DNA of 64,000 nucleotides from Crambe crambe (lineage: Eukaryota; Porifera; Demospongiae; Poecilosclerida; Crambeidae), in assembly GCA_963924555.1 (NCBI GenBank), contig OZ004596.1:1426001-1490000 (forward strand), given 5' to 3'. Positions within the stretch are counted from its first letter, which is position 1, and each line of letters begins with the position of its first letter. The notes beneath the pieces are model-generated. The model was not told the origin of the DNA. It did no database searches and worked only from the letters and a program-made list of their open reading frames with translations. A program made the position numbers and the translations under genes. Below are positions 12,358-52,714 of the stretch, in pieces.

Positions 12358-15300
12358 CTAGTGGATTACTTCTAGGGTTCCACTTTGCAGCAATGGTTCT
12401 CGTAGTTCACATGTCGTGAATGTCGCAGGCATTTTTTGAGCTGAACCACCAGTGCTGGATCGGCTGTCATTATTGGTTCCTGTAGTAACTCTCTCAGTCG
12501 TGATGATTTCTGGAGCATTAGCATCAGTTTCATCACCTGATGGTTTAGTGTGCTTTTTAAAGTGTATGCGAGATATACACCACTTTGGGAAAGACTGCAG
12601 ACGTGGAAAACGAACAAAGACATGATAAAGCACGACTATTACGAATCCTGCATACCCCAGCAAAACCAAGATGGTGTTATAAGCTGAGAGAGCACTCCTA
12701 TTGATCTCACCTACAATATTGGGATCTGATGAAGTAAAGAGAGATCCAATAAACAACATGCACAAGTTGAGGATGAAAAAATTGTCCATATAATTTCGCC
12801 ACTTGTTCTTGAAAGGCTTGATCCATACTTGAAAGAAGAGGAGGAGGAGGAGCAGGAGGGTGGTAGCAAACACACTGAAGGATGTAAACACGAGAAAGAA
12901 AGGAATCCATCGAAATATTAATCTCATCCCAAGCCAGGATCGGCACTCTGTTTTGAATGGTTCCCACAAGGCATCGTAAAGAGGCTTGTATTTTCGCAAG
13001 ACTCTGCTTTTATAAACACAGCTGGGGAACAGGAGGAAAATAGGAAGGGGAAGGAGGTAAAATAGGAACAGTAAAAATGCCAGGATGGTGAGGACTGCAT
13101 GACCAATGTCAAAGTATGGAATATTTGCATCTATAATCCAGTGAAAGTGCTTCACTCCTGTGAGTGATGTGATCTCTATAAATCCAACCAACTCAGCACA
13201 GGATTGTAAGATGCTGAGATAGCAGAGTATCATGAGGGTGGAGAAAGCCTGAATGATGCTGTGTCCCGAGGAAGCCTTTACCAGTTTGACACATTTGGTG
13301 TTCAAAAGGCCCGTGATTAGAAACATGAGGATGAAGAGGTAAACTGGGAAAACAAGTTGCCAGATAGTACGATGTAAGGCTGTCATGCCGTCATAGAGAC
13401 AAGAGTCAATTCCAAAGTTCAGAGATGGCCAAAAAACAACTGCTAAATGTTCCTGTGGTGGTATCCTGAGAACATATGAATAAATGCTGAAGACGTTGGA
13501 GTAAAAGATGACACCATTGAGGAAACCTCCTGTGATGTTGATGTCGAGAAATGTGATGAGGAACACAAGGAGGATTCCTGCTACTGCAAAGAGGAAGAAT
13601 AAGAGAATGTAGACATTGGAGCACTCTCTACACTCTATGGAAGTGCCGATCACTACACTGTAGTTTTCTCTGCAGCCTCCACACACTACTCCAGCCCTGT
13701 TAAAGTCACACTGACGATCAAAGTCTGGTACATCATCATTGGTGACATCTAAATTCACAATTTCTGGCTGGCAGTACTCAAAATGGCATGTTCCAATGAT
13801 AATATTGCTGGCGTCTTTGTGTGATTGGTTTCCACTATCACTTATTTGTCCCAACCATTGATTATCACTGATGACAAGTCTGTGTTTATCGGGATCACAA
13901 GTCACTCCTTTTAATTTCGTGAAGTCACTACGGCACTCACAGCGGTTATCAGACAACTGAAATCCAAATCCACAACTGCTGAGTCTCACTTGTAACGTTG
14001 TCTGTGCACGAACAACACCAGCATTCGATGAATAGATAATGATGTCAACGTCTTGATCTTCAGGACCCATAACTGTTATAGAAACACTTGTAGAGTTTTC
14101 ATTCGATAGAATTGCAAAGTTGTTGGCATTCAGGAATGTAACAGATGATGTTCTGTTGTCCCTTTCAAGATTGACAAGAGAAGAAGAGAAAGAAGAGAGA
14201 ACCGTATTTATTTTATTCCCAAGATTGTCAGTGGCTGAGAAGTTTACTGAGAAGCTTTGACCTGGAGCTACAGTTGAAGGTACTTCAGACATTTTGTACT
14301 CCAATCTAGACGCAAAGCCCCTAACAAGTCCAGGATGGAGTGGATTTTCTTCGAAACTGAAGACATTTGGGAAGTTCTCATGGAGGATGGCAATGGTATT
14401 ATTATTATTGAAACGATATTGCAAATCATAGGCCCAGGAGCATGCACTCAAAACAGATCCATAGATGTAACTGCCGTACATAGCTTTGTTCCCTCTAAAC
14501 TCAACGTAAGCATTTGTGGCATTGATGTCTGAGCAATTGGTGCAGAGGAAAAAACTGTCATAGCGAAAAGATATGAAGCAATCGTTAGTGTAACTATCGA
14601 GATATGAATTGGAGGTAATCTGATTGACATAGATTGCACCACCTGAGACTTGTGCAACGTTGTCCAGCAAGCGAAGATGAGAGTGAGGCAGGAGTATAAT
14701 GTAGGATTGACTGAGAAGATGGAGGGCTCCTCCACTGACCCCCACATTTCCTAGAAATGTCAGATTCCCAAAGATCCCGATGAAGCTTTTTTCGGCTTTG
14801 AGACCAGTACCCATATTACCTTGAATGTGGCACTCTCCATGGAAGGTGATATTGATGCTTATTAACTCAATTGTTCCGACAGTCTGTCCAACGAGCAGGG
14901 TGCCTGTGGAGGCATTGGGACTGGCTGATACAATTGTATTGTCGATGAATGAAGAATTTTGAACTGTTACTTGAATGCCATCATCTTGTCCAGATGATTT
15001 CTCCTCAATCACTGTTAGAGCAGAACCTGAAATGGCCTCATTTTGCATGAAGGTGGTATCTGCTATGAGAAATTGAACTACATCAGTTCTATCTCTCAGA
15101 GGTGAGTAATGTGTCGAGTAAATGAAAACCCCTGCTCCTATTTGAGCTTTGTTTCGAGAGAAGATTGAGTTTACGATATTCACATAAACATCACGATTAA
15201 TTTCAAAGTTTGGAATGACATTCCTTCTGTCAAGAGGGGGGAAAACGTCATTGATGACAGCTATTCCACCAGGTCCCATAACTCTTGAAGTATCACTCAG

Positions 15301-16302
15301 TCCATTGGAGTCAAATAAACAGTCATTCATTGTAATTGCCGAATGCTGAACGCCACTAAAAAGAGAGATTTGAGCAGAGCTTCCAAAGAGAGCGATATTG
15401 TTAGTGAAATTACTACCACTCATGGTGATATTGATGCCAAAATCAAGTTGAGCCAAGTGTAGACTGAGTCCTCCTCCACCGCCTATCCCAAAGCCCAAAT
15501 CATTAAGGAATCTGGAGTCTCTGTCTAAAACCGTGATGTAGGAAGAGCTACATTCAGAATTTGAAAAGAACTTTGTATTTTCCATTTCGAGAGAAAAAAC
15601 CTGATTGGAATAAGCTTGTCTGTAATCATTTTTGAAGTCCTGGTAGAGTAGGACTGCCCCGCCTCCTCTGGTCAAGTTTTGCTTCAGAAGTGCTGAAATG
15701 CTGTCTATGTTAGCATTTGCACAGGATCCCACTTGGATATTATTAGAGAAAGTGACATTTGAGAAGCTGGAAGCACCAATGAGGTTAACACCAACTAGCC
15801 CAAATCCTGCAGTGTTGGTAACCGTCACAGACTCCAACATCACATTCCTGCAATACCCTAGGAACACACCCACCTGGACCTCAGTCGGGATGAAGACAAA
15901 CAGATCAACAAATATCTCCAGTTCTTCCAAAACCATATCGAAATTTGTTCCATTCAATCGACAGCCATTGATTTCCACTCCAGATATAAGGATGTCTGAA
16001 GAGTTTACGAAAGCAAGTCCCACACCATTTGCGCACTGGATCAAAGTGCTACTTCCCACAATTCTGACATTGAATAGATCCTTGTGCAAAGTGAAGTTTT
16101 CCAGTTGATAGTCTCCTGACTCCATTTTTATGGTGGTATTTGAGGTTAGATCTCTTAGTGCCCTGTCCAGGGAAACACACTCTGTGGTTAGGCTCTCTCC
16201 ATTGTCGCAGTTCTTGGAGACAGTAACGACGGCAGCTGAAGAGTAGGAAAGAGCGAAACAATAAATCCCCACTAATATCGGTACTAGGATTTGATAAGGC
16301 AT
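12358..16302 (-). CDS. Beta-helix/8TM membrane protein, copy A (unnamed family)
   Basis: One uninterrupted frame of 1314 codons. I do not recognise a named family. Visible parts are a signal peptide (residues 1-24, ending ALSYSSA) and a long extracellular region to about 670 made of short N-glycosylation-rich beta-helix rungs with recurring N-N-x-A-x-x-G-(S/G) patterns such as FTNNIALFGSSAQ and GNVGVSGGALHLLS. A possible Ig-like stretch follows (VAPGQSFSVNFSATDNLGN, about 675-780), then a cysteine-rich module (about 780-890; GVVCGGCRENYSVVIG) and about eight hydrophobic segments (893-1230) separated by short loops. The cytosolic tail of about 80 residues ends REPLLQSGTL. This resembles a surface adhesion or sensor receptor; ligand and signalling are unknown. 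It is intronless, while nearly all neighbours are intron-dense. It is very close to the next copy and may be retrogene-derived. Confidence 0.85.
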   Translation of the reverse strand: MPYQILVPILVGIYCFALSYSSAAVVTVSKNCDNGESLTTECVSLDRALRDLTSNTTIKMESGDYQLENFTLHKDLFNVRIVGSSTLIQCANGVGLAFVNSSDILISGVEINGCRLNGTNFDMVLEELEIFVDLFVFIPTEVQVGVFLGYCRNVMLESVTVTNTAGFGLVGVNLIGASSFSNVTFSNNIQVGSCANANIDSISALLKQNLTRGGGAVLLYQDFKNDYRQAYSNQVFSLEMENTKFFSNSECSSSYITVLDRDSRFLNDLGFGIGGGGGLSLHLAQLDFGINITMSGSNFTNNIALFGSSAQISLFSGVQHSAITMNDCLFDSNGLSDTSRVMGPGGIAVINDVFPPLDRRNVIPNFEINRDVYVNIVNSIFSRNKAQIGAGVFIYSTHYSPLRDRTDVVQFLIADTTFMQNEAISGSALTVIEEKSSGQDDGIQVTVQNSSFIDNTIVSASPNASTGTLLVGQTVGTIELISINITFHGECHIQGNMGTGLKAEKSFIGIFGNLTFLGNVGVSGGALHLLSQSYIILLPHSHLRLLDNVAQVSGGAIYVNQITSNSYLDSYTNDCFISFRYDSFFLCTNCSDINATNAYVEFRGNKAMYGSYIYGSVLSACSWAYDLQYRFNNNNTIAILHENFPNVFSFEENPLHPGLVRGFASRLEYKMSEVPSTVAPGQSFSVNFSATDNLGNKINTVLSSFSSSLVNLERDNRTSSVTFLNANNFAILSNENSTSVSITVMGPEDQDVDIIIYSSNAGVVRAQTTLQVRLSSCGFGFQLSDNRCECRSDFTKLKGVTCDPDKHRLVISDNQWLGQISDSGNQSHKDASNIIIGTCHFEYCQPEIVNLDVTNDDVPDFDRQCDFNRAGVVCGGCRENYSVVIGTSIECRECSNVYILLFFLFAVAGILLVFLITFLDINITGGFLNGVIFYSNVFSIYSYVLRIPPQEHLAVVFWPSLNFGIDSCLYDGMTALHRTIWQLVFPVYLFILMFLITGLLNTKCVKLVKASSGHSIIQAFSTLMILCYLSILQSCAELVGFIEITSLTGVKHFHWIIDANIPYFDIGHAVLTILAFLLFLFYLLPLPIFLLFPSCVYKSRVLRKYKPLYDALWEPFKTECRSWLGMRLIFRWIPFFLVFTSFSVFATTLLLLLLLFFQVWIKPFKNKWRNYMDNFFILNLCMLFIGSLFTSSDPNIVGEINRSALSAYNTILVLLGYAGFVIVVLYHVFVRFPRLQSFPKWCISRIHFKKHTKPSGDETDANAPEIITTERVTTGTNNDSRSSTGGSAQKMPATFTTCELREPLLQSGTLEVIH

Positions 16303-16940
16303 AGCTAGCTATCGAGTTCTGCTAAGACTTGGCTATAAACCAGACCCTCCCCTATCGTGCAGATAATCATAGCTAGGTCCCGAACCTTGAACCCAGGAAG
16401 TGCATCCGGTGGTGATTAATTTTAGCTACTCCGGTTTGCGGGAATCTTGCGGGTTTTCAGGTTGGTTGCCAACAGTGCAGAATTGAATTCGTGCTCGCTA
16501 AATTTAAGACCATTGCATTTGTATGACAGTATATTTTACTCGCATGAATTTATTTTTCACATGCGAATATACAAGCATTAACCCTGAGTAGGAATATTTT
16601 TCTCTCTCAGTGATAAATCTCATCTGTAGTGATAAAATCTCCTTGGAAATAAATATTAACTTTAATGCAGTGATCCATTGATGTGAATGCATGGTGGAGC
16701 TTTATACAATCAGCAATGGAAAATCAGAGTCTACAGTGAGTGACAAATTATTCTAAGATCAAGAGATTATGTTGCTCTGTATCATATTACTCACTGAGAG
16801 TGATCATATGGTTATGATTATGGTTAAACCTGCTAGCTTTATAAGGTATACATGTACTACTCATTGCAGTGTGTTTTGAAAGTACACACCAGCAAGAACC
16901 AGCAAACACCAAAATTAACATTAATGAACTAGCTATTTCA

Positions 16941-17142
16941 AGGGTTCCTGATTCCAGCAATGGTTCGTGTATTTCAATATCATGGGGTCACTGGGTTCAT
17001 GGGGTCACTGGGTTCATGGGGTCACTGGGTTCTCTGTGGCCATTTATCTTTGTCTTGGTTGTGGAACTCGAGATTCACTTTCATCAGCTTCAGGCTTCAT
17101 GTACTTTGCAAAGTATGTACGATGCATACACTGCCTCAGGCA
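16941..17142 (-). pseudogene. Relic of the C-terminal end of a further beta-helix/8TM copy
   Basis: Read on the minus strand, 17142 to about 17060 gives CLRQCMHRTYFAKYMKPEAD, which differs by one residue from copy B (CLRQCMRRTYFAKYMKPEAD). The frame then stops at an arginine-rich stretch. Further down, 16970-16941 gives EPLLESGTL, matching the extreme C-terminus of copy A (EPLLQSGTL). Between these two stretches the expected sequence is replaced by a three-fold 17-bp tandem repeat. No upstream part of a gene is present, so this is a truncated, disrupted remnant of a host gene copy. Confidence 0.82.
16981..17031 (+). repeat. Three tandem 17-bp units inside the gene relic
   Basis: The unit CATGGGGTCACTGGGTT is repeated three times head to tail without change. 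It interrupts the relic of the beta-helix/8TM gene. Confidence 0.9.
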
Positions 17143-17314
17143 AAGTAAAGGATCGACTACGTGCAGTGCAGACTATCTATGCCCACCCAAATCCACAGAG
17201 ATTTTAGCTTGGGTTGTTAGAGTTCACTGATGTGTGAACTAGTTAATGAAAATGTCACAATGTAGCATCTAAATAATTATAGGGTTCCACAAACTACTAG
17301 CAAGAAAAAATTAT

Positions 17315-17345
17315 AGGGGGGCCGGGGGGGGGGGGGGGGGGGGGG
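17315..17345 (+). repeat. Poly-G tract downstream of copy B
   Basis: A G run broken once by CC lies about 40 bp beyond the stop of copy B, in its 3' region. Its length may be an assembly estimate. Confidence 0.85.
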
Positions 17346-17382
17346 CTAATTATAGTAATCCACATCTCACTATTTAATTGTT

Positions 17383-20300
17383 TCAAGGCTCCAGCAGTGG
17401 CTCACGTAGTACTGGTTGTATTTGTATTTCAGTAAATGTGACTAGCTGCTTTTTCATAGAGGAGCTATCGAGTTGGTTGCTGTTCTTAGTTTCAGTGACA
17501 TTCGCCTTGGCTGGGCTTACTTTTGGAACTTGAGCATCACTTTCATCAGCTTCAGGCTTCATATACTTTGCAAAGTACGTACGACGCATACACTGCCTCA
17601 GGCATGATTGCAGTTTTGGAAAACGGACAAAGACATGGTAAAACACAATTATCACAAATCCTGTGTACCCCAACAAAATCACAATGGTGCTATAGGCCAA
17701 GAGAGCAGCATGAACCTTGCCAGTCTTTTCCACCTCCAATTGAACAAAGAGACCTCCGATAAACAACATGCACAAGTTGAGGAGGAAAAAGCTGTCCATG
17801 TAGTTTCGCCACTTACTCTTGAAAGGGTTGGCCAATAGTTGGAAGAAGAGGAGGAGGAGGAGCATGAGGGACGTAATGAACACACTAATAGACTCTGAGG
17901 TTGTAAACACAAGAATGAAAGGAATCCATCGAAATATCAACCTCATTCCAAGCCAGAATCGATATTTAGTCTTGAATGGCTCCCAAAAGGAATCGTAAAA
18001 GGGTTTGAATTTGTGCAAGTATTTGTTCCTATAAACGAGGTTAGGGAATAGGAGGAAAATAGGAAGAGGGATGAGATAGAACAGGAAGAGCAAGATAGCC
18101 AGGAAACAGAGGAGCCCATGACCATAGAAGAAATATTCCACAGATGCGTCTACAATCCAGCGAAGGTGCTTCACTCCTGTAAGTGATGTGATCTCTGTAG
18201 CTCCCACCAACTCAGCACAGGATTGTAAGATGCTGACATAGCAGAGTATGATGAGTGTGGAGAAAGCCTGAATGATGCTGTGTCCCGAGGAAGCCTTTAC
18301 CAGTTTGACACATTTGGTGTTCAAAAGGCCTGTGATTAGAAACATGAGGATGAAGAGGTAAACTGGGAAAACAAGTCGCCAGATAGTGCGATGTAAGGCT
18401 GTCATACCATCATAGAGACAAGAGTCAATTCCAAAGTTCAGAGATGGCCAAAAAACAACTGCTAAATGATGCTGTGATGGTATTATGAGATTAGGTGCAT
18501 AAAGGCTGAAGATGTTGGAGTAAAAGATGACACCATTGAGGAAACCTCCCGTGATGTTGATGTTGAGAAATGTAATAAGGAAGATGAGGAGGATTCCTGC
18601 TGCTGCAAAGAGGAAGAATAAGAGAATGTAGACATTCGAGCACTTTTTACATTCTATGGAAGTGCCAATCACTTCACTGTAGTCTTCTCTGCAGCGCCCA
18701 CACAATACTCCAGCTCTGTTAAAGTCACACTGACTTTTAAAGTCTGGCACGTCGTTATTGGTGATATCTAAAATTGTAGTTTCTAGCCGGCAGTACCCAA
18801 ATAGGCATGTTCCAAAGATAATATTGCTGTCATCTTTGTATGATTGGTTTCCATAATCATTCAACAGTCCCAACCATCGATTACCACTGATGATAAGTGT
18901 GTGATTGTCGAGATCACACGTCACTCCTATTTCTATGAAGTTGTTACGGCACTCACAGCGGTTATCAGATAAGTTAAATCCAAATCCGCAACTGCCAAGT
19001 TTCACTTGTAAAACTGTCTGCGCACGAACACCAGGATCAGTGGAATAGATGGTGACATCAACATTTTTGTTTTCAGGACCAATAATTGTTATCGGAACAC
19101 TTGTGGAATTTGTACGGGATAGAATTGCAAAGTTGTTGGTACTCAGAGAAGCAGTTGTTGAAGTCCTCTCAACCATTTCCAGATTAATAAGAGAAGAAGC
19201 AAATGAAGAGAGGACTGTGGCTATAGAATTCCCAAGATTGTCCATTGCCGTGAAGTTTACTGAGAACCTTTGTCCTGGAGCTACAGTGGATGGTACTTGA
19301 GTCATATTGGATAGAGTGGATGCAAAGCCCCTAACCAGTCCAGGATTGAGTGGATTTTCTTCGAAATTGAATACATTTGGAAAGTTTTCATGGAGGATGG
19401 CAAAGGTATTTGTAGTGTTGAAATTCAGCTGGAAATGGTCAGCCCAGGGGCACCTACTCAATGTAGACCCATAGATATAACTGCCAACTGGAGCAGTGTT
19501 CCCTCTAAACTCAACGTAAGCATTTGTAGCATTAATATCTGAACAATTTGTACAGATCACAAAATCATCATATCCAAAGGACAAGAAGCAGTCACTAGTA
19601 AAACCCCCACTGTATGAGGTGGAGCTAATCTGATTCACATAAATTGCACCACCTGAGACTTGTGCAATATTATTCAGCATGCGAAGACGGGAGTGAGGCA
19701 GGAGTATGATAAATGATTGGCTGAGAAGATGGAGGGCTCCTCCACTAACTCCCACATTTTCACGAAGTGTCAGATCCCCAAACACTCCAATTAGGCTTCT
19801 TTCAGCTTTGAGCCCACTCCCCAGATTACCTCGAATGTGACATTCATCATGGAAGGTAATATTGATGTTTGTTACCTCAATTGTCCCCACAGTCTGTCCA
19901 ACGAGCAGGGCATCCATGGAGGGGTCGGGATTAGCCGATATAATTCTATTGTTGATGAATGAAGAATTTCGAACAGTTACTTGAATGCCATCAGCCATTC
20001 CAGAAGATTTAGTCTCAGTTATCATCATGGCAGAACCTGAATTGGCCTCATTTTGTATGAAGGTGGTATTAGCAATGAGAAACTGAACTGCATCAGTTGT
20101 ATCCCTCAAAGGTGAGGTGTGAGCAGAGAAGATGAACATCCCTGCCCCAAACGGAGATCTATTTCGTGAGAAAATTGAGTTTCGGATATTCACATAAAAG
20201 TTTCGATTCAGCTCAAGGTTTGGAACAACATCAAAAGGCAGTTGAATGTCATTAAAAATTGCTATTCCACCAGATCCAACAGCCCTCAGAGTTGCAGTAC

Positions 20301-21312
20301 TAAAGGGTTCCAATACTCCATTAGACTCGAATGTGCTATCCTCAAATGTAACAACCGAGTTCTTCACGCCACTAAAAAGAGTGATTTGAGCTGCACTTCC
20401 GAAGAGAGCAGAATTATTGGTGAAAAAGCTTTCTCTTATAGTGATATTGACACCAAAATCAAGCTGGGCCAAATGTAGACTGAGTCCTCCTCCACCGCCT
20501 ATCCTGAAACCTGATTCTCTCAAAAACTGAGAGTTTGCACCTAGGCCTAGACTCATTAAATAGGATAAGGTGCATTCTGAATTTGAAAAGAAGCTCACAT
20601 CTTCCATATCCAGTTTAAATTTTTGGTTGGTATAAGCTTGTTTGTATTCGCTTGTGAAGTCTTGATAGAGTAGGGCTGCTCCACCCCCTCTAGTCAAGTC
20701 TTGCATCAAAAAAGCAGTAAAAGTACTAGTGACAATATTTTCACAGGACCCCACCTGAATATTATTAGAGAAAGTGACATTTGAGAAGCTGGAAGCACCA
20801 ATGAGGTTAACACCAACTAGCCCGAATCCTGCAGTGTTGGTAACCGTCACAGACTCCAACATCACATTCCTGCAATGCCCTAGGAACACACCCACCTGAA
20901 CCTCAGTTGGAATGGAGACAAACAGATCAACAAACCTCTCCAGTTCTTCCAAAACCATATCAAAATTTGTTCCATTCAATCGACAGCCATTGATTTCCAC
21001 TCCAGATATAAGGATGTATGAAGAGTTTACGAAAGCAAGTCCCACACCATTTGCACACTGGATCGAAGTGTTATTTCCCACAATTCTGACATTGGATAGA
21101 TTCTTATGCAAAGTGAAGTTTTCCAGCTGATAGTCTCCTAATTCCATTTGTATGGTGGTATCTGAAGTTAGGTCTCTTAGTGCCCTGTCCAGGGAAACAC
21201 ACTCTGTGGTTAGGCTCTCTCCATTGTCGCAGTTCTTGGAGACAGTAACGACGACAGCTGAAGAGTACGAAAGAGCGAGACAACAAATTGCTAATGCAAA
21301 AATACACTGCAT
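17383..21312 (-). CDS. Beta-helix/8TM membrane protein, copy B (unnamed family)
   Basis: A single open frame, intronless like copy A. The frame is open to an ATG at 21411, but I prefer the ATG at 21312. It starts MQCIFALAICCLALSYSSA, a good signal peptide that aligns with copy A; the longer version would translate a promoter-like NRF-1 palindrome. The architecture matches copy A: a beta-helix ectodomain with many Asn glycosylation sites, an Ig-like stretch (VAPGQRFSVNFTAMDNLGN) and a Cys-rich module (GVLCGRCREDYSEVIG, about residue 860). About eight membrane segments follow from about 890, and a tail ends LREPLLEP. Identity to copy A is patchy at the DNA level: nearly identical in blocks such as 18215-18470 and 20785-20900, clearly lower in the mid-ectodomain. 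The function is not known; a cell-surface role is inferred from topology. Confidence 0.85.
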   Translation of the reverse strand: MQCIFALAICCLALSYSSAVVVTVSKNCDNGESLTTECVSLDRALRDLTSDTTIQMELGDYQLENFTLHKNLSNVRIVGNNTSIQCANGVGLAFVNSSYILISGVEINGCRLNGTNFDMVLEELERFVDLFVSIPTEVQVGVFLGHCRNVMLESVTVTNTAGFGLVGVNLIGASSFSNVTFSNNIQVGSCENIVTSTFTAFLMQDLTRGGGAALLYQDFTSEYKQAYTNQKFKLDMEDVSFFSNSECTLSYLMSLGLGANSQFLRESGFRIGGGGGLSLHLAQLDFGVNITIRESFFTNNSALFGSAAQITLFSGVKNSVVTFEDSTFESNGVLEPFSTATLRAVGSGGIAIFNDIQLPFDVVPNLELNRNFYVNIRNSIFSRNRSPFGAGMFIFSAHTSPLRDTTDAVQFLIANTTFIQNEANSGSAMMITETKSSGMADGIQVTVRNSSFINNRIISANPDPSMDALLVGQTVGTIEVTNINITFHDECHIRGNLGSGLKAERSLIGVFGDLTLRENVGVSGGALHLLSQSFIILLPHSRLRMLNNIAQVSGGAIYVNQISSTSYSGGFTSDCFLSFGYDDFVICTNCSDINATNAYVEFRGNTAPVGSYIYGSTLSRCPWADHFQLNFNTTNTFAILHENFPNVFNFEENPLNPGLVRGFASTLSNMTQVPSTVAPGQRFSVNFTAMDNLGNSIATVLSSFASSLINLEMVERTSTTASLSTNNFAILSRTNSTSVPITIIGPENKNVDVTIYSTDPGVRAQTVLQVKLGSCGFGFNLSDNRCECRNNFIEIGVTCDLDNHTLIISGNRWLGLLNDYGNQSYKDDSNIIFGTCLFGYCRLETTILDITNNDVPDFKSQCDFNRAGVLCGRCREDYSEVIGTSIECKKCSNVYILLFFLFAAAGILLIFLITFLNINITGGFLNGVIFYSNIFSLYAPNLIIPSQHHLAVVFWPSLNFGIDSCLYDGMTALHRTIWRLVFPVYLFILMFLITGLLNTKCVKLVKASSGHSIIQAFSTLIILCYVSILQSCAELVGATEITSLTGVKHLRWIVDASVEYFFYGHGLLCFLAILLFLFYLIPLPIFLLFPNLVYRNKYLHKFKPFYDSFWEPFKTKYRFWLGMRLIFRWIPFILVFTTSESISVFITSLMLLLLLFFQLLANPFKSKWRNYMDSFFLLNLCMLFIGGLFVQLEVEKTGKVHAALLAYSTIVILLGYTGFVIIVFYHVFVRFPKLQSCLRQCMRRTYFAKYMKPEADESDAQVPKVSPAKANVTETKNSNQLDSSSMKKQLVTFTEIQIQPVLREPLLEP

Positions 21313-21376
21313 ATCGACTCTATAAGAGAACAGCCCGATATGACATATGATTGTCCAAATGAGGCATAATAGAATA

Positions 21377-21390
21377 CTGCGCATGCGCAG
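21377..21390. promoter_or_regulatory. NRF-1-like palindrome upstream of copy B
   Basis: CTGCGCATGCGCAG is a perfect 14-bp palindrome containing the NRF-1 consensus TGCGCATGCGCA. It lies 65 bp upstream of the preferred start at 21312, which supports that start. Confidence 0.6.
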
Positions 21391-21796
21391 GGTGTGTCTG
21401 ATACGATGCACTCAGCTAGCTCAGATCAAAAGGTAACTCCAGCTTCCAATGTGATACTAATATGCTCTAGCTTGGTAGAGAAGACCACAGCTCTGGTTAC
21501 ATTTCTATGTGTCATGCAATGGTCCTGCCTCTTTTTTTGGCATGTTAAGAAGATGCTCAATAGACCATTGAACCGTAGTTTCATTCGGATATGAAGGGGT
21601 GGGGTAACCAACTTCATTTGTAATGAGCAAAGTAAAATGATAAATGATGAAAGCTACCCTAGATCTCAAGGCTACAAAATCAAATCTGCATGACTGACAA
21701 TGGTCAAAACAAAAAACAACAACAAACAAAAAACAAACAAAAAACAAACAACAACAGCAAACAATAATTGCTTATAAAACACAATTGTGTGCTATC
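21391..21796. other. Intergenic spacer between copies B and C
   Basis: No gene is visible. An A-rich CAAA/CAA simple repeat occupies about 21705-21765, just downstream of copy C. The remainder shows nothing I can assign. Confidence 0.7.
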
Positions 21797-24700
21797 CTAT
21801 TCATTCTTACATGTGTAATACGTGTCAGTTTGCCTCTCATCACTCTCAGTCAAAGGGCTAAAGCTGCTCTCACTAGCATCTTGCCTTGCTTCAAGTTGCA
21901 TTGAAGATGGCTCTTCATGGTGGTGCATAACGGTTACATTAGTGGCTACATGTCCTGTAGTGGTAATCACAGGTGTCTCATTCAGGTTGCAATCTTCTTT
22001 TAGTCCAGCTATACTGACATCTGTGCTGGTAACTATAGGCTCAGCTTCCTCTTTCACTAATTCTGGGCGTCCTGTGTCACAATTCTCCAAAACATGGCGC
22101 CAACACTTTTTTATGTCAGCAAAGAAGTTGGGAAACCGTTTACGAAAGTGAACAACGATCACCCCAAGTACCACAGCATAAAAGAGCATCAGAATAGTGA
22201 TGTTAGATGCAACAAGAGAAGGTGGGGTTGGGGAGTCTCTGTAGTACACAGGAGAAGGGTCGTAGATGGGATAGTAAAATTGTGTGGACTGTAAGTTAGT
22301 GAAGTAGAGTGTTCCCAATATGAAGAGGAGGACTAGGACGAGTAGAAAGTCATCTAATATGTTCATCCACTGCTTGGTGTATGGCATCAGTTTCGTTTGA
22401 AGAAATAACAGACCCAAGAGAATCAGCCCTAAAGCAAAAAGCCCATTGACATTTGTAAGAGTTACTGCACAGGAGTAGATGACCAATCGCAAGATTAGCC
22501 GCAAACCCAGCCACCAACAACGTTCTGGTTTGAAAGGTGCCCAGATAACGTCATAGACTGGCTTCAATTTGGTGGCCAGGTAAGTGATTTTGAAAGCAAA
22601 CTTTGGACAAGTGATGATGAAAGTGAATGGTACCATAAACACCAAGATGATAAGTATTGATACGATCACAAGAAAGCCATGAGCACTTTTGAAATATATC
22701 AGATTAGGATCTTCTTTCCAGCGATAATCTGCAATGAAACCATCTAGTGTATAGAGCCTTACGAATGCAAGTGACCTCACACACGTCCTCAGGATTGATA
22801 TGTAGCATACGATGATAACTGTTGCTCCAACTTTAGCTGGAGAGCAGGATTCTGGCAAGGAGCATCTAATTGCTACCACATAGATCGCTCCTAGCAGAAG
22901 GAAAATGTAAGCAATGAAGATAAACTGCACTATTATTCCCACGAATTCAGTCATGCCTTGGTATAAACACTGATAAATGTTCAAGTCAAAGCTGAGAAAG
23001 TCAGCAACGATGAAGATAATGTTCCACTCCACATCAGGTATGAAGAAATATTTGTAGATGCTTATAATATTGCTGTAGAAGAGAATAGAGTTGAAGTATC
23101 CTGCAGTGATATTGATGTCAAAGAGAACTAGAGCAACAATGAAGAGAATGCCAACGATCAGCAGTGCAGCTATTATCCACAGTGAAGAGTTGGAACACCT
23201 TTTGCATACTTTCGAGCTGCCAAGGCTGACTGTTAAATTGTCCTTGCAGCCAGAACAGAGAAGACCAGCATGGTTATGGGAACATTGACGTGTGAAGTCC
23301 AGATTCGTAATGATTTTATAATGATCGTTACAGTATGGTTTAGGACAATACCCCCATATCAGGCCAGTTTCTGATTCATTCCTTCCCAACCATATACCAG
23401 GTGGAATGATAAACGTCCCATTTAAGAAACACTGAATCCTGAGATTTGCTAATCTTTGATCACATTGGCAACTCATGATGGACGAATCAAAGGAGTAACC
23501 CAATAAACAAGTCTTTAATTGTACAGATATTGTGACTGATGCTGCAGATGGAGAAGTTATGGACGAAATCTTGAGATTGATGCTTTTATTTTGAGTCCCA
23601 AAGAGAGTTAGTGGTACAAGTCCTTTTTTCTCATCCAACGGCAAGAGTCTATTACTTCTTGAAAGGGATTGAATGTTAGAAAACACAGCTCCTTCCTCTT
23701 CTGGAAGACTATATGTCAGTAGATCTGGAATAGACTGATTGAACACATCAAAAGATGTAACAAATATTTCGAATCTTTGACCAGGCATCACATTCACCAT
23801 ATCAGCATTAACTACTAGACGTATACTGGGAGAACTGACTCGATCAATGCCTACAGGCTCGTCATCAAAGTTTATAAAAGTTTTCTTCACACATTCAGAG
23901 TACAAGTATTGGTAGAAGTTGGTATAATTTGCCGCTCTATTACTATCACCATTCCAGAAGCAATCTCTGAGATATGCACCATATATCATAGAGGCTATTG
24001 GTGCCTTATTACCACGGAAATCCACCACTGTGTGAAGCTGTCCATCATCAAAGATGCAATCATCAAAATGATAGTTATTATCCACACGGATGAAACAGTC
24101 TCCACCATTTGCCTTTCTGTCGTTTATATCGGCATAAATTGCTCCCCCAAAAGTGGTGGCCACATTGTCAAGGAAAAAAAGATGGGAATTATTGTAAAGC
24201 CTCAAATAACCACCATCTGATAAATGGAGAGCTCCTCCATTGATACCAGTGTTGTTTGCAAATACTGCTTTCCCAGAGATGTTGATTTCACAAACTGAAC
24301 ACGTAAGAGCAGTACCTTTGTTCGATGAGAAAGTGCAATCTCTTTCCAGTTTAAGCCTGCCATTGGTCACTCTCATTGCAGTGGCTGTTTCAGCCAAATA
24401 GTCTGTACAGTAGTTATTCTTGATCGTGCAATCACTTAAAATAACCAAAAGTGAATTCACTGACTCAGATATGCCATAAGCAGCTATTGTTGATGCTTCA
24501 GTGGCAACATTTTCTTCAAAGGTGGTTGACTGCAATATGATGACTGTGTTGGGTGCAAATGGTAGCAACTGAATATATAAACCACTTCCGTCGAGTGCTG
24601 TATTGTTGATGAAAGAAGAACCCATTATCTTGACATTCCTTGATAAAGAACTTCTAGTGAATGGAGTGGTACCAGATAGAATAATGAACAAGCCTCCCCC

Positions 24701-25570
24701 CATATTCGAGTTGTAATTGCTCCGAAATGTACAATCACTGAATTGCAGTAGATTATCAAGGACACTGGAAAGCATAGATATGTGAATTCCGCTCCCATAG
24801 GAAGCTGTGTTCCTCTCAAATACAGAACTCTCAATGTGTGTTTCAACTGTGAAGGATGATTGAGTTAGAGCAACTGTGAGACCTCCTCCAGCAGAAGCAA
24901 GCGGCTTGATGTCAAGATCAAGAAACTGATCGAAATGGTTGGTATTCTTGAAGAAAGTGCATCTTGTAATGTTGACATAGACCACAGTAGTACTAGGACG
25001 AGGGGAATGTTTATGGTCCAGATAGACCAAATATGCACCACCTCCAATATTACCTTTGAATTCAACATCGGAAAGAACGAAGGATCCAGTCACGTCAAGT
25101 GAAACCAAACCAACTCCTTTGCTCCCACTTATCGAGACATTTTTCATGATAACATTATGGCAGTCGGTTATAAGCAACGACGGTAACCTACAATTCATCT
25201 GTACTGCAAACATTGATGTACAAATCTCCTCGTGTCCAATCATTCCACACTCTATAAAAGCTATACTGGTAATTGTAAGGTTACCAATTCCATAGAAAAA
25301 AAGTCCCTCATACTCAGAGCAAGTGACTGTGACATTAGCACCACCAACCAGGCTGATGTTTGAAATATTTCCTATACTGATAGAATGGCGTATAGTGTGA
25401 GTACCTTCTAGGAACTGCAACTCGGTATCATTAGCGAGCGTGGAAAGAGCCCTGTTGATGTCGAAACACTGGTCTGGTGGACTGGGTGTAGGGCAAGACG
25501 GGCGCACGTCAATAGTTAACGTGTTTCTCGAGAGTAGGAGGAATAACAGCACTGCTGATAAGAGCTTCAT
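21797..25570 (-). CDS. Beta-helix/8TM membrane protein, copy C (divergent)
   Basis: A single intronless frame of about 1257 residues from the preferred ATG at 25570 (MKLLSAVLLFLLLSRNTLTI, a clear signal peptide). A second in-frame ATG at 25594 would add eight residues. The layout is as in copies A and B: beta-helix-like rungs (ENVATEASTIAAYG, NNTGINGGALHLSDGGYLRL), a linker with VMPGQRFEIFVTSFD, and a Cys-rich module (AGLLCSGCKDNLTVSLGSSK, near residue 780). Membrane segments follow from about 792; the first is SLWIIAALLIVGILFIVAL, followed by FDINITAGYFNSILFYSN. The tail is longer and Glu/Thr-rich, with several His and Asp clusters. Sequence similarity to A and B is modest over the ectodomain and best over FDINIT..., the QCLYQGMTE loop and the later membrane helices. 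It is an older duplicate; its function is unknown. Confidence 0.83.
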   Translation of the reverse strand: MKLLSAVLLFLLLSRNTLTIDVRPSCPTPSPPDQCFDINRALSTLANDTELQFLEGTHTIRHSISIGNISNISLVGGANVTVTCSEYEGLFFYGIGNLTITSIAFIECGMIGHEEICTSMFAVQMNCRLPSLLITDCHNVIMKNVSISGSKGVGLVSLDVTGSFVLSDVEFKGNIGGGAYLVYLDHKHSPRPSTTVVYVNITRCTFFKNTNHFDQFLDLDIKPLASAGGGLTVALTQSSFTVETHIESSVFERNTASYGSGIHISMLSSVLDNLLQFSDCTFRSNYNSNMGGGLFIILSGTTPFTRSSLSRNVKIMGSSFINNTALDGSGLYIQLLPFAPNTVIILQSTTFEENVATEASTIAAYGISESVNSLLVILSDCTIKNNYCTDYLAETATAMRVTNGRLKLERDCTFSSNKGTALTCSVCEINISGKAVFANNTGINGGALHLSDGGYLRLYNNSHLFFLDNVATTFGGAIYADINDRKANGGDCFIRVDNNYHFDDCIFDDGQLHTVVDFRGNKAPIASMIYGAYLRDCFWNGDSNRAANYTNFYQYLYSECVKKTFINFDDEPVGIDRVSSPSIRLVVNADMVNVMPGQRFEIFVTSFDVFNQSIPDLLTYSLPEEEGAVFSNIQSLSRSNRLLPLDEKKGLVPLTLFGTQNKSINLKISSITSPSAASVTISVQLKTCLLGYSFDSSIMSCQCDQRLANLRIQCFLNGTFIIPPGIWLGRNESETGLIWGYCPKPYCNDHYKIITNLDFTRQCSHNHAGLLCSGCKDNLTVSLGSSKVCKRCSNSSLWIIAALLIVGILFIVALVLFDINITAGYFNSILFYSNIISIYKYFFIPDVEWNIIFIVADFLSFDLNIYQCLYQGMTEFVGIIVQFIFIAYIFLLLGAIYVVAIRCSLPESCSPAKVGATVIIVCYISILRTCVRSLAFVRLYTLDGFIADYRWKEDPNLIYFKSAHGFLVIVSILIILVFMVPFTFIITCPKFAFKITYLATKLKPVYDVIWAPFKPERCWWLGLRLILRLVIYSCAVTLTNVNGLFALGLILLGLLFLQTKLMPYTKQWMNILDDFLLVLVLLFILGTLYFTNLQSTQFYYPIYDPSPVYYRDSPTPPSLVASNITILMLFYAVVLGVIVVHFRKRFPNFFADIKKCWRHVLENCDTGRPELVKEEAEPIVTSTDVSIAGLKEDCNLNETPVITTTGHVATNVTVMHHHEEPSSMQLEARQDASESSFSPLTESDERQTDTYYTCKNE

Positions 25571-25594
25571 TGGTAAATCGATCCCGAAATGCAT

Positions 25595-27873: not shown

Positions 27874-30759
27874 TTAAAAATTAAGTACAGAATGTCCCAT
27901 TTTTGTGAGAGTTTGTGTATCCACGGAATCATAGACTTGACTGCCCAAATCATAACCCAACATCTGGTACTCCTTCAAAGTGTAGCGCTCAGACCCACAT
28001 TGGATGTAGATGGTTTCGTTGGGGGCATAGAAGCGGTTGAAAGCAGTGAAAGGAACTATTCCTTTCAAACTCTGTACTGGGTTACATGAACCAAATTCAT
28101 AGACATCAGGGTTACCGATAAGACATGTATTGTTGGTCCAGACCTCATCCCAACCAGAAGGGTTCTTACCCGTTCCTGAACCATCACTATTCGCACAGAA
28201 AGGCTTGTAGAAGACATTCCTAACCTTCAGGGCATCATCATAATCATCATTAGAATAACGTGAAGCATCAGGATAAACATAAACATTGTTCTGCACCGTT
28301 TTTGAATGTCCGAGAAAATTTTTATACCCACCGTAAGTCAAAAAGTTGAACGTGTCGAAATAATAACATGAGCCGTCGTCATGATCCAGGGGCCAAGTGC
28401 AGTGGTAATTACAAATAACAAAATTCATAGTGAGGTTACTTAGTGCTGGAGTTAACGATGGAACAGTGCCATTGATATCTCGGACCGTCGTGAGGTACGG
28501 TTGTCGATCCCAGGTGTTGAACACTCCATGGTCACCAGTTTCTCGTACCAAGTTGAAACCAAGGTTACGAGAGAAGAAATTGCCCCCACCAAAACCGTCA
28601 TTCACATTGACTCCAGCCCTTGGGCCATTGAAGAAGATATTATAACTGAAGTTGGTCTGAGCACTCAGAGCCTGGCAAAATGCTGCGGTCTGCTTCCCAA
28701 AGATTCCGAATTCATGAATATAGTTTCCAGTGATCTTTGTGCCCCTGGGTTGATTACCGTTGGTCCCATCCATTAAGTCTGCACTTCCCATTAGCACCAC
28801 ACCACTTTCCCCACAGAACTTGAATTCATTGCCATCAATCACAGCCCCTCTGACGTAATTAGAAAGAAACAAACCATTTCCCCCTGGAGAATCGAATAGG
28901 CAATTTTTTATAGTGAGTCCATCAATTCCTTCAGCAAATACAGTTCCTTCTTTGTGTATAGCCCAGTCACCTCCACTGGGTACAGCGTAGTCTTCCAAAA
29001 AAGTCAGTTCACTGTGAGCGAGAGTCATGCCTGTGATAGTAATATTGTACACAGGGTCATCCATTGATCCTTCGATACTGAGCAGCTTGGTAAGAGCGCT
29101 TCCTACTCCGCTGGAAGGAGAGGAGCCATTGGGGGCAAAGTATAACTTCATCTCTTCTTTGTCATAGAACCACTCCCCGGGAGAGTCAAGTTCTTCTTTG
29201 ATGTTGTCAATGTAATACTCACTCCCGTGATCACAGCCTCGAGCCTCTTGGAATCCACCACGAGAAAATGTGATAGTTTCATTGGCCATGTTTCTGTCCT
29301 CTATAGCGAATTGCCATCCTCCCCAGTAACCACAGTGGAAAGCATGCACTACTCCTGTCTTGGGGTTGCTCCAAGTTCGATTGTTGAAATCCTCACGCTG
29401 ATAATATTGTAATCCAGTGGGGATTGTATATGTCTTGGCACCACCACCTGATGGAGTGGCTAGCCCCCAGTACGACTCAGGGGGGTTAAAATTGTCAACA
29501 GGTCCACCGATTCCGATTTCAAAGTCAGGGAAATAAGACCTGCTTCTCTCTGGGCTTGCAATATGGATCTCTTTTGCTGGCGGCTTCTTGATAGGTGGGA
29601 GCCATATTACTGCACGTGTGTATCCTGTGGGATCAGTATGCAGTCCAGTGGTCTCCGGATTGCCATTGGGGTATCTGGCTCGTACTGCACGTCGTCCATT
29701 GATGAACAAAGACGAGAAAGGTATGGGATTTTGGTCACTCAGGTCAGCCTCATAAATAGTCACTTTCATACCACTTGTGCAACCAGATTGAGTCAGCGTG
29801 TGCCAGAGATAGTCGAAACGAAGGTAACACATGTGTGCAAAATCACCCCTGGTGTCATCATGCCAAGTATAGGCCTTGCACTCTGACTCACTCCTACAGG
29901 CACTCTTGCAAGCCTCAGAACTCTTCATCAAGCCATAGTATTTGACTGCACTATTACTCTCTCCCGCTTTGTCTATGTCACCGATCACACTACTACCATC
30001 ACCAACGACACTCATCACTGTTTTATACTCACTCCAAGCAAAGTTATACTTCTTCCCACCACTTACTAACACCTTGTCACGCTCGTCTCCCACAATGACT
30101 AAATTACTGTCTTGAGAGAAAAGTCTGATGGTTTCGTTGAGGTAGTATTGGCCAGCCTTCAGGTAAATGACACCAGAATCCGATTTAGTTTTCTTCATCG
30201 AGCGATACAATTTGAGGGCAGCTTGGATGGTTTGAACTGGCTCCATCTCACTTCCCATGTTTCTGTTGTCACCGCTTGAAGGATCGACATATATTGTGAT
30301 GTTAGCTTTGAATTTCTTCTGCTGCTGTTGTCGTTGCACCGATTCTCGACGCAAGCGGTCATCAAAAGACGTTATCTCGGGACAGTTCTCCAATTGAAGA
30401 GCATCTGAAGTGACTTGATGATCCACCTGTTGTCATGAGTCATGATTATGATTAACATTGAATTAAAGGATCACTAAACATATTTACACCACTTAGTGAT
30501 TCGAAGAGTCCTTGTTTGATCAATTACTTAGCACCACTTAGCTATGAATGTAATTAGAGTCATGTTGCGGTTACCATAGGCTTACCTCAGGTTGTAAGAA
30601 TTGTGCATATTCAAGAGCTAATTCTTTGATGGCACAGTCCACTGATGGATCTACATTCACTGGGCTTGCCGATGCTCGAGGAAGATAGTCATGCCCACCG
30701 GAGGCAGCAGCAGTACACGCCAAGATAACCGCAAGATTAAGAGCGGTCGCCATTTTCAT
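27874..30759 (-). CDS. Secreted PAN/apple-domain beta-helix protein
   Basis: Two exons: 30586-30759 (signal peptide and propeptide-like segment, starting MKMATALNLAVILACTAAAS) and 27874-30426, joined in frame, giving about 908 residues. A second ATG at 30753 is possible. A parallel beta-helix starts with ITIYVDPSSGDNRNMGSE. It is interrupted at about residues 200-265 by a PAN/apple-like insert (SSEACKSACRSESECKAYTW ... CYLRFDY). It resumes with the motif-rich core (NGLFLSNYVRGAVIDGNEF, GVVLMGSADLMDG, GPRAGVNVNDGFGGGNFFSR). This resembles pectate-lyase-fold proteins of unknown activity in marine invertebrates and bacteria. No membrane helix follows, so it is probably secreted and carbohydrate- or matrix-directed. 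Substrate and activity are not known. It has one intron only. It is divergent from the REEP5-like gene. Confidence 0.85.
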
Positions 30760-50286: not shown

Positions 50287-52714
50287 TCATCTTAGCTCAT
50301 GCCACTCGGCAATATGTTTCCCGGGTGTTGCCATGACATCATTCCAGTGCCTAAACTCCTCCCCTGAGCACTGCCCACATATGATGACTTGACCCAGTTC
50401 TTTTTTGCTGGCATAACGGCTGTCGTTCAGCATGGATATGTTCACAGCCACATTCTTCACTTGCAAGGGCTCGACGGTACATGTCAGAGCTTCATTGAAG
50501 ATGGGAGAACAACTCTGAGCCTTCTTCTTGGTCCTCAACCGACCCAAGACCCTGTCTCCACTCACTGTGATCCAAATCTTTGCCTGGACATCTGGGAAGA
50601 GGAATTTTTTTGTAGTGAATCAGATCAAATATTGCACTCACATAGTGGAAAATGGTGTTACTCAAGGCTTCCATAATGTAAACCACATATTATGAAGTGA
50701 TATATGTACTTGCCCTGTGCCATCACCAACTGACTTGTATATAATTCTGTGTGCTATGACATAGCCACTGTTCCCATACCTGTCTCTCGGCTATTTCCTT
50801 TATTCAAGTCCTTTGCCCTCAGAAGTATGACCCCCAACTTCTTAGTGTCTGGAGTGTAACTTATAGAGACAAGGATGGTCCCCAGATTTTCTCTCACCTG
50901 AATCGAGGAAACATGTTAATTTTGTTACAATCATTAGGACCAAAAATCAACACTTAGTGTTTACCAATTACCAAATGTGTGGTCATAATTGCACATTCAT
51001 TTTTGGCCACTTCTTCATAATTAATTCATGATCACTGATTTAGGGCTGTGACATGATTTAGGGCTGTGAACCATTGTGTGAATCATTGTGGAGACGTTTT
51101 TGGGAAAAGGCATGTTTGAGAAAGTGGCCCATTAAATTTTAGATTTCTTCACTGTCACAAACCACCTGTAATAGGTGCATTGAAAACCAGTGTATTGATT
51201 ACTATATATGCCCATTATATAACTCACTAACCCTTAACTACATGCATAATATTATTATGCTAAGCCACAACCAACTTTTTAGGGCTGTCCACTTCCTCAT
51301 ATTAAATTATTATTAATACAACATACAAAGTGGAATTCAAAACTCGTGCACCATTTGCTTTTATAAGCAAGCCCTGGCATTATTACAGTATTAAACATAT
51401 TCACCCATGCAGACAAACTGGCCACACATGCTGGGTCATGAAGTTGTTCTATTAAGGCACTGCTGCAAAATCTCTGTACTCACAGCAAACCCAAGTTTCA
51501 AATTTTATTTCTTTCTCCCTCTTTCTTCTTTCTCTCATTATTGGCAGGATGCCTTCATATTAGCCAGCCTAGTTGGCAATGTTCTTATACTCTTGTATTA
51601 TGAAGGAAAAAAATGGGATTCCATTCATGCCACATACCTTGGGGGGCTTCAGGGGCAAGGTCATCGATGCCTCCCCTTTTACGAACTGGACTTGGACCAG
51701 TGGAAGGTTTGCCAGTCCCAGAACCACATCCTTGCCGTAGGAGCGGTGATCCAACACCTCAAGGTGGAGGTTGGAGTTAATCAATTCTTCGGCACTCATG
51801 GCTTCATACTGCACCACTTCGTTGAAAACGGGGAAATTTTCACGCCGCTGGGTGTGTGTCTTGGTTGTCCTCCGCTGGGGGAGCTCTGGGAGATTTGGAA
51901 TAAAGAAAATCCGGACATAAGGGTCCACTGGAGTTCCGTCTGCGTGATAGGGAAGATTCGATGCTCTCTCGATTTTCACCTTCAATGTTGTCTCATTCTC
52001 TTGGTATGACAGAGCTATGAACAACTCAGCAAGTTCTTCTTCTCTAACAGAGCCACGATGAACAGGGGAGGGGCTAGGGGGTGGTGTCACTCGTGCACTA
52101 CGAGGTCCAGGTGAAGAAGAGAGTCTTGGAGAAAAGCAACCATCTTCAGAAGTGTCAGAGTAACAATCGGTTGATTTCCGTCTGATGTCCAGCGGCTTTG
52201 ATCTGCGGCTACGAGTCTTTTTCCCTTCTTTCTCGGGAGTCTTAGTGGTGCTCTCCTTGTCAACAAAAGGGTATCGTGACCCTGTCACTTCACCCAGCTG
52301 TGCTGCTTCCACATAGTGGGTGGTTGTCCCTGGAATGGGAGGATCACCCATGTTGATCTTTGGTCTCTTGCCAGTGGGGTAGGGCAAACTCATCACTTGT
52401 CCAGTATCTTCTGTGGGTACGGTCTGGTAGCCTCTATCTTTATGCTTAGATCTGTAGTTGAGCCACACCAAAACAAGCAAGAGAATCACCACTGCAGTGA
52501 CAATGATTAAGACCACTGGGAGACCGACTAGTAGAGTGATTCCAGCAGCACTGCGAGTTCCTGATGGAATCGCGCTGCTGGAGTTAGTAGTACTAATGCC
52601 TTCTTGTAGCAGCGCTGCAGTAGGAGAAGAAGAAGCGGACAAACCCTTTACGACGCCACCATTATCACCCATAGTTGCTGGGTTGGGCTCGTAGCTATCT
52701 CTGGAACTAAGCAA
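50287..52714 (-). CDS. Synaptotagmin-like double-C2 membrane protein
   Basis: The first exon is large (51640-52714) and is followed, after an intron of about 740 bp, by three smaller ones down to the stop at 50287. It has a short Ser/Thr-rich N-terminus, one membrane helix (ITLLVGLPVVLIIVTAVVIL, about residues 57-85) and a basic juxtamembrane stretch. A Ser/Pro-rich linker leads to C2A (KVKIERASNLPYHADGTPVD then PYVRIFFIP) and C2B, ending with the synaptotagmin signature HWNDVMATPGKHIAEWHELR. C2A keeps the Asp of VDPY but has Ala at the first ligand position and Arg where a loop-3 Asp is expected (VLDHRSYG). C2B lacks the SDPY motif (RETDVQAKIWI), so calcium binding is probably lost or weak. 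The role is likely membrane trafficking. Start could be the ATG at 52714 or at about 52672. Confidence 0.82.
50903..51639. other. Large intron of the synaptotagmin-like gene
   Basis: About 740 bp, long for this window. I see no gene in it. A short direct repeat (GATTTAGGGCTGTGA) occurs twice at about 51040-51069. The rest is AT-rich and unremarkable. Confidence 0.6.

Follow-up and report, generated by a model that had tools for sequence, protein, structure and literature searches.

Three adjacent genes in the window, the 64,000-nucleotide stretch of the Crambe crambe genome analysed here, are best explained, with about an even chance of being right, as members of a very large family of receptors, multi-pass and encoded in single exons, that bind glycans or microbes and serve in endocytosis or sensing. 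A preliminary description of this DNA had claimed three minus-strand frames of about 1260-1340 codons, and these were present exactly (Table 1), consecutive frames being separated by 1080 bp and 412 bp. In gene 1 a signal-peptide-like start is followed by a beta-helix, an Ig-like domain, a Cys module, a membrane core and a tail with LREPLLQ; signal peptides were judged by eye and are putative. The three members are adjacent, as the term "tandem array" implied, but the term describes only in part how they are related. Gene 2 shares 71.6% identity with gene 1 and 90.9% with its nearest relative, locus L010, which lies about 104 kb away on the opposite strand of the same contig. Gene 3, judged by its sequence, is an old paralogue, showing 22-28% identity to the other 26 members in a 27-member alignment and a core at most 31% identical to that of any of these full-length members.

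Table 1. Positions of the three family genes and their domains within the window.
Feature	Position	Strand	Remarks
Family gene 1	12358..16302	-	1314 aa, single open frame
Gene 1 Cys module and membrane core, residues 777-1228	12619..13974	-	
Family gene 2	17383..21384	-	1333 aa, single open frame; tail with LREPLLE
Gene 2 Cys module and membrane core, residues 799-1251	17632..18990	-	
Family gene 3	21797..25594	-	1265 aa, single open frame
Gene 3 beta-helix ectodomain, about residues 24-489	24128..25525	-	Parallel rungs, AlphaFold2 model
Gene 3 Ig-like domain, about residues 578-696	23507..23863	-	Resembles domains of the S-layer protein SbsC; moderate confidence
Gene 3 Cys module, residues 696-802	23189..23509	-	11 invariant Cys
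Gene 3 membrane core, residues 803-1150	22145..23188	-	Probably nine segments

Genome searches placed the long-type core at no fewer than 172 loci (at least 172) in the same 143-Mb genome, 124 of them in uninterrupted frames of at least 1100 aa, and the family loci are scattered over 20 contigs. A second, homologous core type was found at 149 further separate places among the matches listed, mostly in frames of 480-680 aa without a beta-helix. Because this short class carries the core without the helix, the core is expected to have a role of its own. All 27 members examined at full length consist of a single open frame, and in each of them the stop-bounded frame opens 0-46 codons ahead of the first Met; their ectodomains span about 700-870 residues and their alignment contains 28 invariant columns. 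Three short-class frames were also uninterrupted, one of which ends at its locus boundary. The earlier proposal of an unnamed, lineage-expanded, intronless surface family is upheld by the number of loci, by the uninterrupted frames and by the lack of a Pfam receptor match, and the family greatly exceeds the size that the three window genes could reveal. Similar unnamed predicted proteins may occur in other sponges and in cnidarians, which we take as a lead only.

The 28 invariant columns, together with a dN/dS below 1 in the ectodomain and membrane core of 12 out of 12 paralogue pairs (omega 0.20-0.49), exclude that these are chance frames. No positive selection was detected at the domain level for the ectodomain or the membrane core in the 12 pairs, and this absence speaks against a pathogen-driven reading, since a receptor of that kind might show it. 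An omega of 2.08 for the Cys module of L027 versus L028 (105 codons, dS 0.016) was set aside as a small-number effect.

The lack of introns over 4 kb could also be expected if the genes were not working host genes, but dead retrocopies or contamination by mobile elements or microbes. Internal stops within the match in 9 of the 172 listed long-type loci and in 16 of 150 listed rows of the second type, as well as the 34 of 172 listed long-type loci in frames shorter than 800 aa, point in the same direction. We nevertheless regard this explanation as highly improbable, as the window genes lie within a 6.5-Mb contig, are flanked by exon-split genes, have a base composition similar to their surroundings and belong to a family in which paralogue pairs are under purifying selection. 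Three scans of viral sequences and two of prokaryote genomes, which detect close relatives only, found no relatives; a contaminating or viral origin was rejected on base composition, contig setting and the viral scans. Ten neighbouring frames were scanned and six gave a Pfam match. Partial profiles in four of the neighbour frames, namely SDR (1-40 of 195), amnionless (3-32 of 442, below its cut-off), PDZ (2-52 of 81) and TB2/DP1 (6-53 of 77), are what would be expected of exons. The statement that every housekeeping neighbour has introns therefore agrees with these four frames but goes too far, as cation-efflux and PEX11 domains are located in frames of about 650 bp and a PAN/GH141/beta-helix frame extends over 2.4 kb.

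Retroposition or an intronless ancestor had been put forward as the origin of the family. We favour an intronless ancestor followed by duplication at the DNA level over separate retropositions, since the 27 diverged members and the three short frames are all uninterrupted and 107 of the 172 listed loci fall into 27 clusters. Retroposition of each copy as the main route was rejected on the same grounds, as the frames are intact across deep divergence and the copies are clustered.

The structure check bore out the claim of a beta-helix and Ig-like ectodomain, with agreement between the AlphaFold2 model and Foldseek. The model displays repeating rungs of parallel strands, as predicted for a right-handed parallel beta-helix, and mean pLDDT is at least 70 in 35 of the first 46 ten-residue blocks (at least 80 in 24 of these). 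Residues of about 490-577 in gene 3 are modelled with low confidence, and conserved Asn, Gly and Cys suggest that the helix continues to about residue 545. The beta-helix was further supported by Pfam-A searches, where Chlam_PMP (PF02415) matched 18 of the 27 members (best E 3.3e-30), Beta_helix five and NosD one (E 0.0009, counted as a beta-helix match). The three window proteins were below the PF02415 cut-off, and POMP_repeat (TIGR01376) was above its cut-off in gene 3. Bacterial Pmps are autotransporters. The family has the beta-helix repeats in common with the Chlamydia Pmp/POMP proteins, but in its members the helix is part of a larger protein that also has an Ig-like domain, a Cys module and a multi-pass membrane core.

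Among solved structures, Foldseek matched the ectodomain to GH110A (E 2.3e-5), the lyase RbmB, the adhesin PfbA and SbsC domains, with low query-normalised TM-scores (0.09-0.31 in the 50 PDB rows listed), and also to phage and giant-virus beta-helix proteins. The closest folds, the GH110 alpha-galactosidases and RbmB, raise the question of whether the proteins are membrane-tethered carbohydrate-active enzymes (GH110- or polysaccharide-lyase-like) for digestion of polysaccharides at the cell surface; GH110A is a blood-group-B galactosidase. This enzyme reading we find improbable: identity to these PDB proteins is 7-13%, and between residues 25 and 695 no D, E, H, K or R is kept in at least 75% of the 27 members, so a conserved charged residue, as an enzyme would be expected to have, is lacking from the ectodomain. 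The large, diverse, Ig-containing ectodomains and the many paralogues would also be in line with homophilic adhesion or allorecognition molecules for self/non-self contact. Three points make this unlikely, if less so than an enzyme: the helix finds its best PDB folds among polysaccharide-active proteins (although the bacterial adhesin PfbA is also listed), the loci are spread over many contigs and not confined to one locus, and the ectodomain has no excess of amino-acid change. Mean pairwise identity among the 27 members was 18.5-28.2% across eight ectodomain blocks, as compared to 34.3% in the Cys module and 35.8% and 31.0% in the first two blocks of the core. Sequence thus appears to vary more in the ectodomain than in the Cys module and the core's first part; residues 1001-1150, which make up the core's third part, have a mean identity of 25.9%, no higher than that of the ectodomain.

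In gene 3 the invariant cysteines of the Cys module are residues 696, 709, 711, 722, 750, 755, 771, 780, 783, 797 and 800. The described CRExYSxxIG pattern is found in frames 1 and 2 but not in frame 3, which reads GLLCSGCKDNLTVSLG. Residues 770-800 of gene 3 weakly match DUF7630 (PF24633, E 0.27), a Cys profile of 45 positions that corresponds to the C-terminal part of the module, and the two are probably related. The match covers about 30 residues, and the profile includes no beta-helix, Ig-like domain or membrane core. Its cut-off of 27 bits was reached by six of 122 listed genome matches, five in frames of 1227-1306 aa and one in a 586-aa frame, while all three window proteins were below it; below-cut-off matches were also obtained in two of 14 control genomes.

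The membrane core of gene 3 contains the invariant residues G832, C876, G880, Y896, H972 and W1028. The first loop reads FLDINIT, FLNINIT or LFDINIT, so the earlier FxDINIT wording fits only in part. Hydropathy shows eight peaks, one of them weak, in agreement with the "about eight" segments first described, but an N-out/C-in topology calls for an odd count, for which nine is the best fit; the core therefore probably has nine segments. In a check set beforehand, searches of Pfam-A, PDB sequences and NCBIfam detected no match between the core and any named receptor or channel family. The 27 members matched 14 Pfam families at an E threshold of 1; none of these was a GPCR or channel family, the fungal TRP-like/Flc family PF06011 or a GPS or GAIN domain, and Pfam-A gave no 7tm match in these members or in the three short-class frames. 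PDB sequences gave no convincing match to the core (best E 2.8), and NCBIfam no named receptor or channel match to the core of the three window proteins. As chance we regarded DUF1218, which scored below its cut-off in the short frame L031 (E 0.0071), TMIE, matched at the final segment (E 0.64), several Pfam families with one to three members each (E 0.028 to 0.83) and the PDB sequence match DMIP24 (E 2.8). The AlphaFold2 model of the core, made with three sequences, was poor (mean pLDDT 48.9, pTM 0.28).

Adhesion GPCRs resemble the family only in the way they may work, with a large modular ectodomain, a Cys-rich juxtamembrane part and a multi-pass core; unlike them, the 27 members lack GPS, GAIN and 7tm matches, and nine segments are favoured. 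Vertebrate odorant receptors have intronless coding sequences and occur in hundreds of clustered copies, features that the family shares, but here there is no 7tm match and full-length members carry the long ectodomains. A chemosensory repertoire of that type, in which the core would act as a GPCR-like transducer or as a ligand-gated channel of a new kind, with the beta-helix as an accessory collector of ligand, is the strongest of the alternatives, to which we would give about one chance in four. It is compatible with the number of copies, their clustering and their single open frames, with the short class that has a core but no beta-helix, and with the charged residues, which are conserved in the core (D962, H972, D1015 and R1026) and in the Cys module (R775) but not in the ectodomain. 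It is weakened by the missing GPCR and channel matches in Pfam, by nine segments being favoured over seven and by the fact that no G-protein or channel motif was identified.

An RE(P/S)LL-type motif was present in 24 of 27 tails, as compared to a mean of 0.45 and a maximum of 3 after shuffling; the pattern was chosen after the tails had been viewed, and a stricter form, RE[PSAI][LI][LIF], holds in 20 of 27. Gene 3 lacks the motif. Codons for LREPLLE gave 52 genome matches versus three for the reversed control, and 47 of the 52 were located directly downstream of a listed core. Of the 172 listed long-type loci, 45 are followed by the strict LREPLLE codons, as against none of the 149 listed second-type places, so the tail motif is no mark of the whole superfamily. 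A canonical acidic di-leucine signal is [DE]xxxL[LI], with the acid four residues before the first Leu; by eye, an acid at this position was present in 5 of 27 tails.

Taken together, the explanation we prefer is that of glycan- or microbe-binding receptors. The beta-helix would bind, and not cut, carbohydrate or other repetitive surfaces such as microbes, food particles or mucus, and the Ig and Cys stalk would relay this binding to the membrane core. The tail, with its di-leucine-like motif, may then recruit a common sorting or signalling partner, leading to uptake of the ligand or to a signal, and the repertoire would have grown by tandem and segmental DNA duplication from the intronless ancestor.

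No description of the family was found in the open-licence literature searched, including passages of PMC4302439, PMC4432959 and PMC4784904. A 2014 census of the GPCRs of one sponge gathered its candidates via Pfam GPCR_A models (PMC4302439), and a family of the present kind would therefore have been left out. A broader proposal, which we consider possible though somewhat less probable than the receptor assignment of the three genes, is that the more than 300 loci with and without a beta-helix, many sharing a C-terminal docking motif, form a non-GPCR repertoire for sensing microbes or glycans that is among the largest families of an early-branching animal and invisible to Pfam-based surveys. 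If true, a large share of the surface-recognition capacity of this animal would reside in a family that domain-based surveys overlook. A clustered repertoire with a common tail motif in many members would also offer direct candidates for explaining how filter feeders distinguish the bacteria they eat from their symbionts.

The three neighbouring minus-strand genes of the window belong to a family that is present in many copies, is encoded in single open frames and shares one architecture: a signal-peptide-like start, a beta-helix, an Ig-like domain, a Cys module, a membrane core and, in most members read, a tail with a common motif. The three long frames proposed in the preliminary description were borne out. 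They are separated by 1080 bp (genes 1 and 2) and 412 bp (genes 2 and 3), and their GC content of 40-42% lies inside the range of the window (39-49%). Pfam matches were obtained in six of the ten neighbouring frames scanned; four had partial profiles only and were exon-like (SDR, amnionless below cut-off, PDZ and TB2/DP1), and in the other two, cation efflux and PEX11, most of the domain was inside frames of about 650 bp. Further neighbours, named by eye from their frames, we take to be CABIN1-, SNX27-, ZnT5-, NARS- and SIRT1-like. A degenerate Pro-rich repeat (18 protein letters, omitted here) is carried by a frame that, as judged by eye, lies within an apparent large exon of a CABIN1-like gene, and an unbroken 367-aa frame combines, by eye, a membrane segment with a C2-like domain. 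A 794-aa frame, unbroken across 2.4 kb, matched Beta_helix, a GH141 insertion and a PAN-like profile; by eye it starts without a signal peptide and therefore likely has an upstream exon.

Coordinates of the features in the window and on contigs C3, C13, C16 and C20 of the same genome
Feature	Position	Strand	Remark
Gene 1, 1314 aa	12358-16302	-	open frame
Gene 2, 1333 aa	17383-21384	-	open frame
Gene 3, 1265 aa	21797-25594	-	open frame
Pro-rich repeat frame	6736-8319	+	
794-aa frame	27874-30258	-	
367-aa frame	51569-52672	-	
Second-type gene pairs	C3:9100884-9130487		9100884/9117878, 9106613/9123552, 9108867/9125787, 9113077/9130026
625-aa frame	C13:5918504-5919271		
2035-aa frame	C20:4649329		
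1835-aa frame	C16:2491651		

The host genome (143.1 Mb, 119 contigs) was searched with gene 3, which gave at least 45 matches, none with internal stops (37 of 580 candidates scored), with a 445-aa core query (at least 95 matches; 95 of 472 scored) and with queries of 136 aa and 135 aa (at least 150 matches each; 150 of 321 and 150 of 552 scored). Merged from four genome searches, loci with this core (long-type loci) number at least 172, a lower bound in which fragments are included: 124 have stop-free frames of 1100 aa or more, 14 have frames of 800-1099 aa and 34 are shorter, and a stop falls inside a match at nine. Clusters of neighbours less than 30 kb apart, 27 in all, hold 107 of the loci, and 61 of 80 adjacent pairs are on the same strand. 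Two unusually long open frames with family matches (2035 and 1835 aa) are perhaps enlarged ectodomains or fused copies.

Complete members were read in 27 cases, with two more frames left out as truncated by the locus end. All 27 are stop-bounded open frames in which the first Met follows the frame start by 0-46 codons, and their alignment (A1) has 28 invariant columns. The core tree groups gene 2 with L010, a locus about 104 kb away on the same contig (94% core identity), and gene 1 joins these two; gene 3 forms a long, old branch of unsure position. A tail motif (R[ED], EE or EY, then [PSAI][LI][LIF]), chosen after the tails were seen, occurs in 24 of 27 tails (shuffles: mean 0.45, maximum 3) and the stricter RE[PSAI][LI][LIF] in 20, gene 3 being among those without the motif. 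Genome-wide, codons for LREPLLE occurred 52 times vs. 3 for the reversed control; 47 of these sites share the strand of a listed long-type core and follow it by no more than 1.7 kb, corresponding to 45 of the 172 loci, and none is near second-type places.

The family genes are under constraint, as omega computed per domain in 12 paralogue pairs was 0.25-0.45 for the ectodomain, 0.20-0.49 for the membrane core, 0.17-0.64 for the Cys module, apart from a single pair (2.08, where synonymous changes were very few), and 0.22-0.66 for the tail (11 pairs giving a value). Domain-wide positive selection was seen in none of these pairs.

An AlphaFold2 model of the gene 3 ectodomain, built from the three window sequences only, reached a mean pLDDT of 67.6 and a pTM of 0.68; pLDDT was at least 70 in 35 and at least 80 in 24 of the first 46 ten-residue blocks, with residues ~490-577 of low and the Ig-like part of middling confidence. 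Foldseek against the PDB gave three of 1954 matches with E ≤0.001, GH110A (twice) and a blood-group-B alpha-1,3-galactosidase, followed slightly above this value by RbmB lyase, the adhesin PfbA and, for the Ig-like part, SbsC S-layer domains, all with low TM-scores. Among viral structures 59 of 1196 matches had E ≤0.001, including phage and giant-virus beta-helix proteins. Among the 27 members, 18 matched the bacterial beta-helix repeat profile Chlam_PMP of Pfam (best E 3.3e-30) and five matched Beta_helix (best E 3.6e-8), and the top match of a PDB-sequence profile search was the SbsC Ig region (E 0.0057). Across residues 25-695 no position retains a charged residue in at least 75% of the 27 members. 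Adhesion or allorecognition as the role of the family we regard as improbable.

Eleven invariant Cys lie in residues 696-800. Matches to DUF7630 came from 18 of the 27 members, the best at E 1e-4, and six of the 122 genome-wide matches listed were above cut-off; weak matches alone mean little, since the profile also gives sub-cut-off matches in two of 14 control genomes. A 625-aa frame with three DUF7630-like stretches (weak, E 0.29-0.85) is perhaps another architecture with the same Cys module. Of the roughly eight membrane segments described earlier, eight hydropathy peaks were recovered, one of them weak, although nine segments, with a weak second one near 831-850, agree better with the exported N-terminus, the tail and the positive charge of the loops at 908-926 and 994-1033. 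AlphaFold2 left the core unfolded (pLDDT 48.9, pTM 0.28). A chemosensory channel or GPCR-like protein is a rather unlikely reading of this core. Pfam receptor and channel families had no match in the 27 members, and PDB sequences gave a best E of only 2.8. A sponge GPCR census took in Pfam GPCR_A matches only (PMC4302439).

Three frames of ~550-585 aa (one cut by the locus end) lack the beta-helix and combine a homologous core with a Cys module that resembles that of the long type. In a profile comparison this second core type matched the long type with 99.8% probability (E 7.7e-28, 356 columns). The second-type query gave at least 151 genome matches (150 of 616 candidates scored); the 150 listed comprise 101 stop-free frames of 480-680 aa, five of 1300 aa or more, 28 below 480 aa and 16 with stops, and represent at least 149 places, none overlapping the 172 long-type loci. 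One of the five long frames, L032, is 36% identical to the query across the second-type core and joins it to an ectodomain that is beta-helix-like by eye (weak Beta_helix match, E 0.26); from this one example read, the beta-helix seems to be present with both core types, via loss in the short class or exchange. On contig C3, second-type genes lie in pairs ~17 kb apart with identical or nearly identical scores, which suggests that a segment with several genes was duplicated recently.

In the open-licence literature searched, we did not find the family described. Lineage-expanded receptor repertoires are already known as a kind; the present architecture and core could be assigned to none of the families tested. 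We give an even chance to a joint reading in which the beta-helix would be non-catalytic and bind glycans or microbial surfaces, the Ig domain and Cys stalk would couple this binding onward, and the tails would share a common partner for sorting or signalling.
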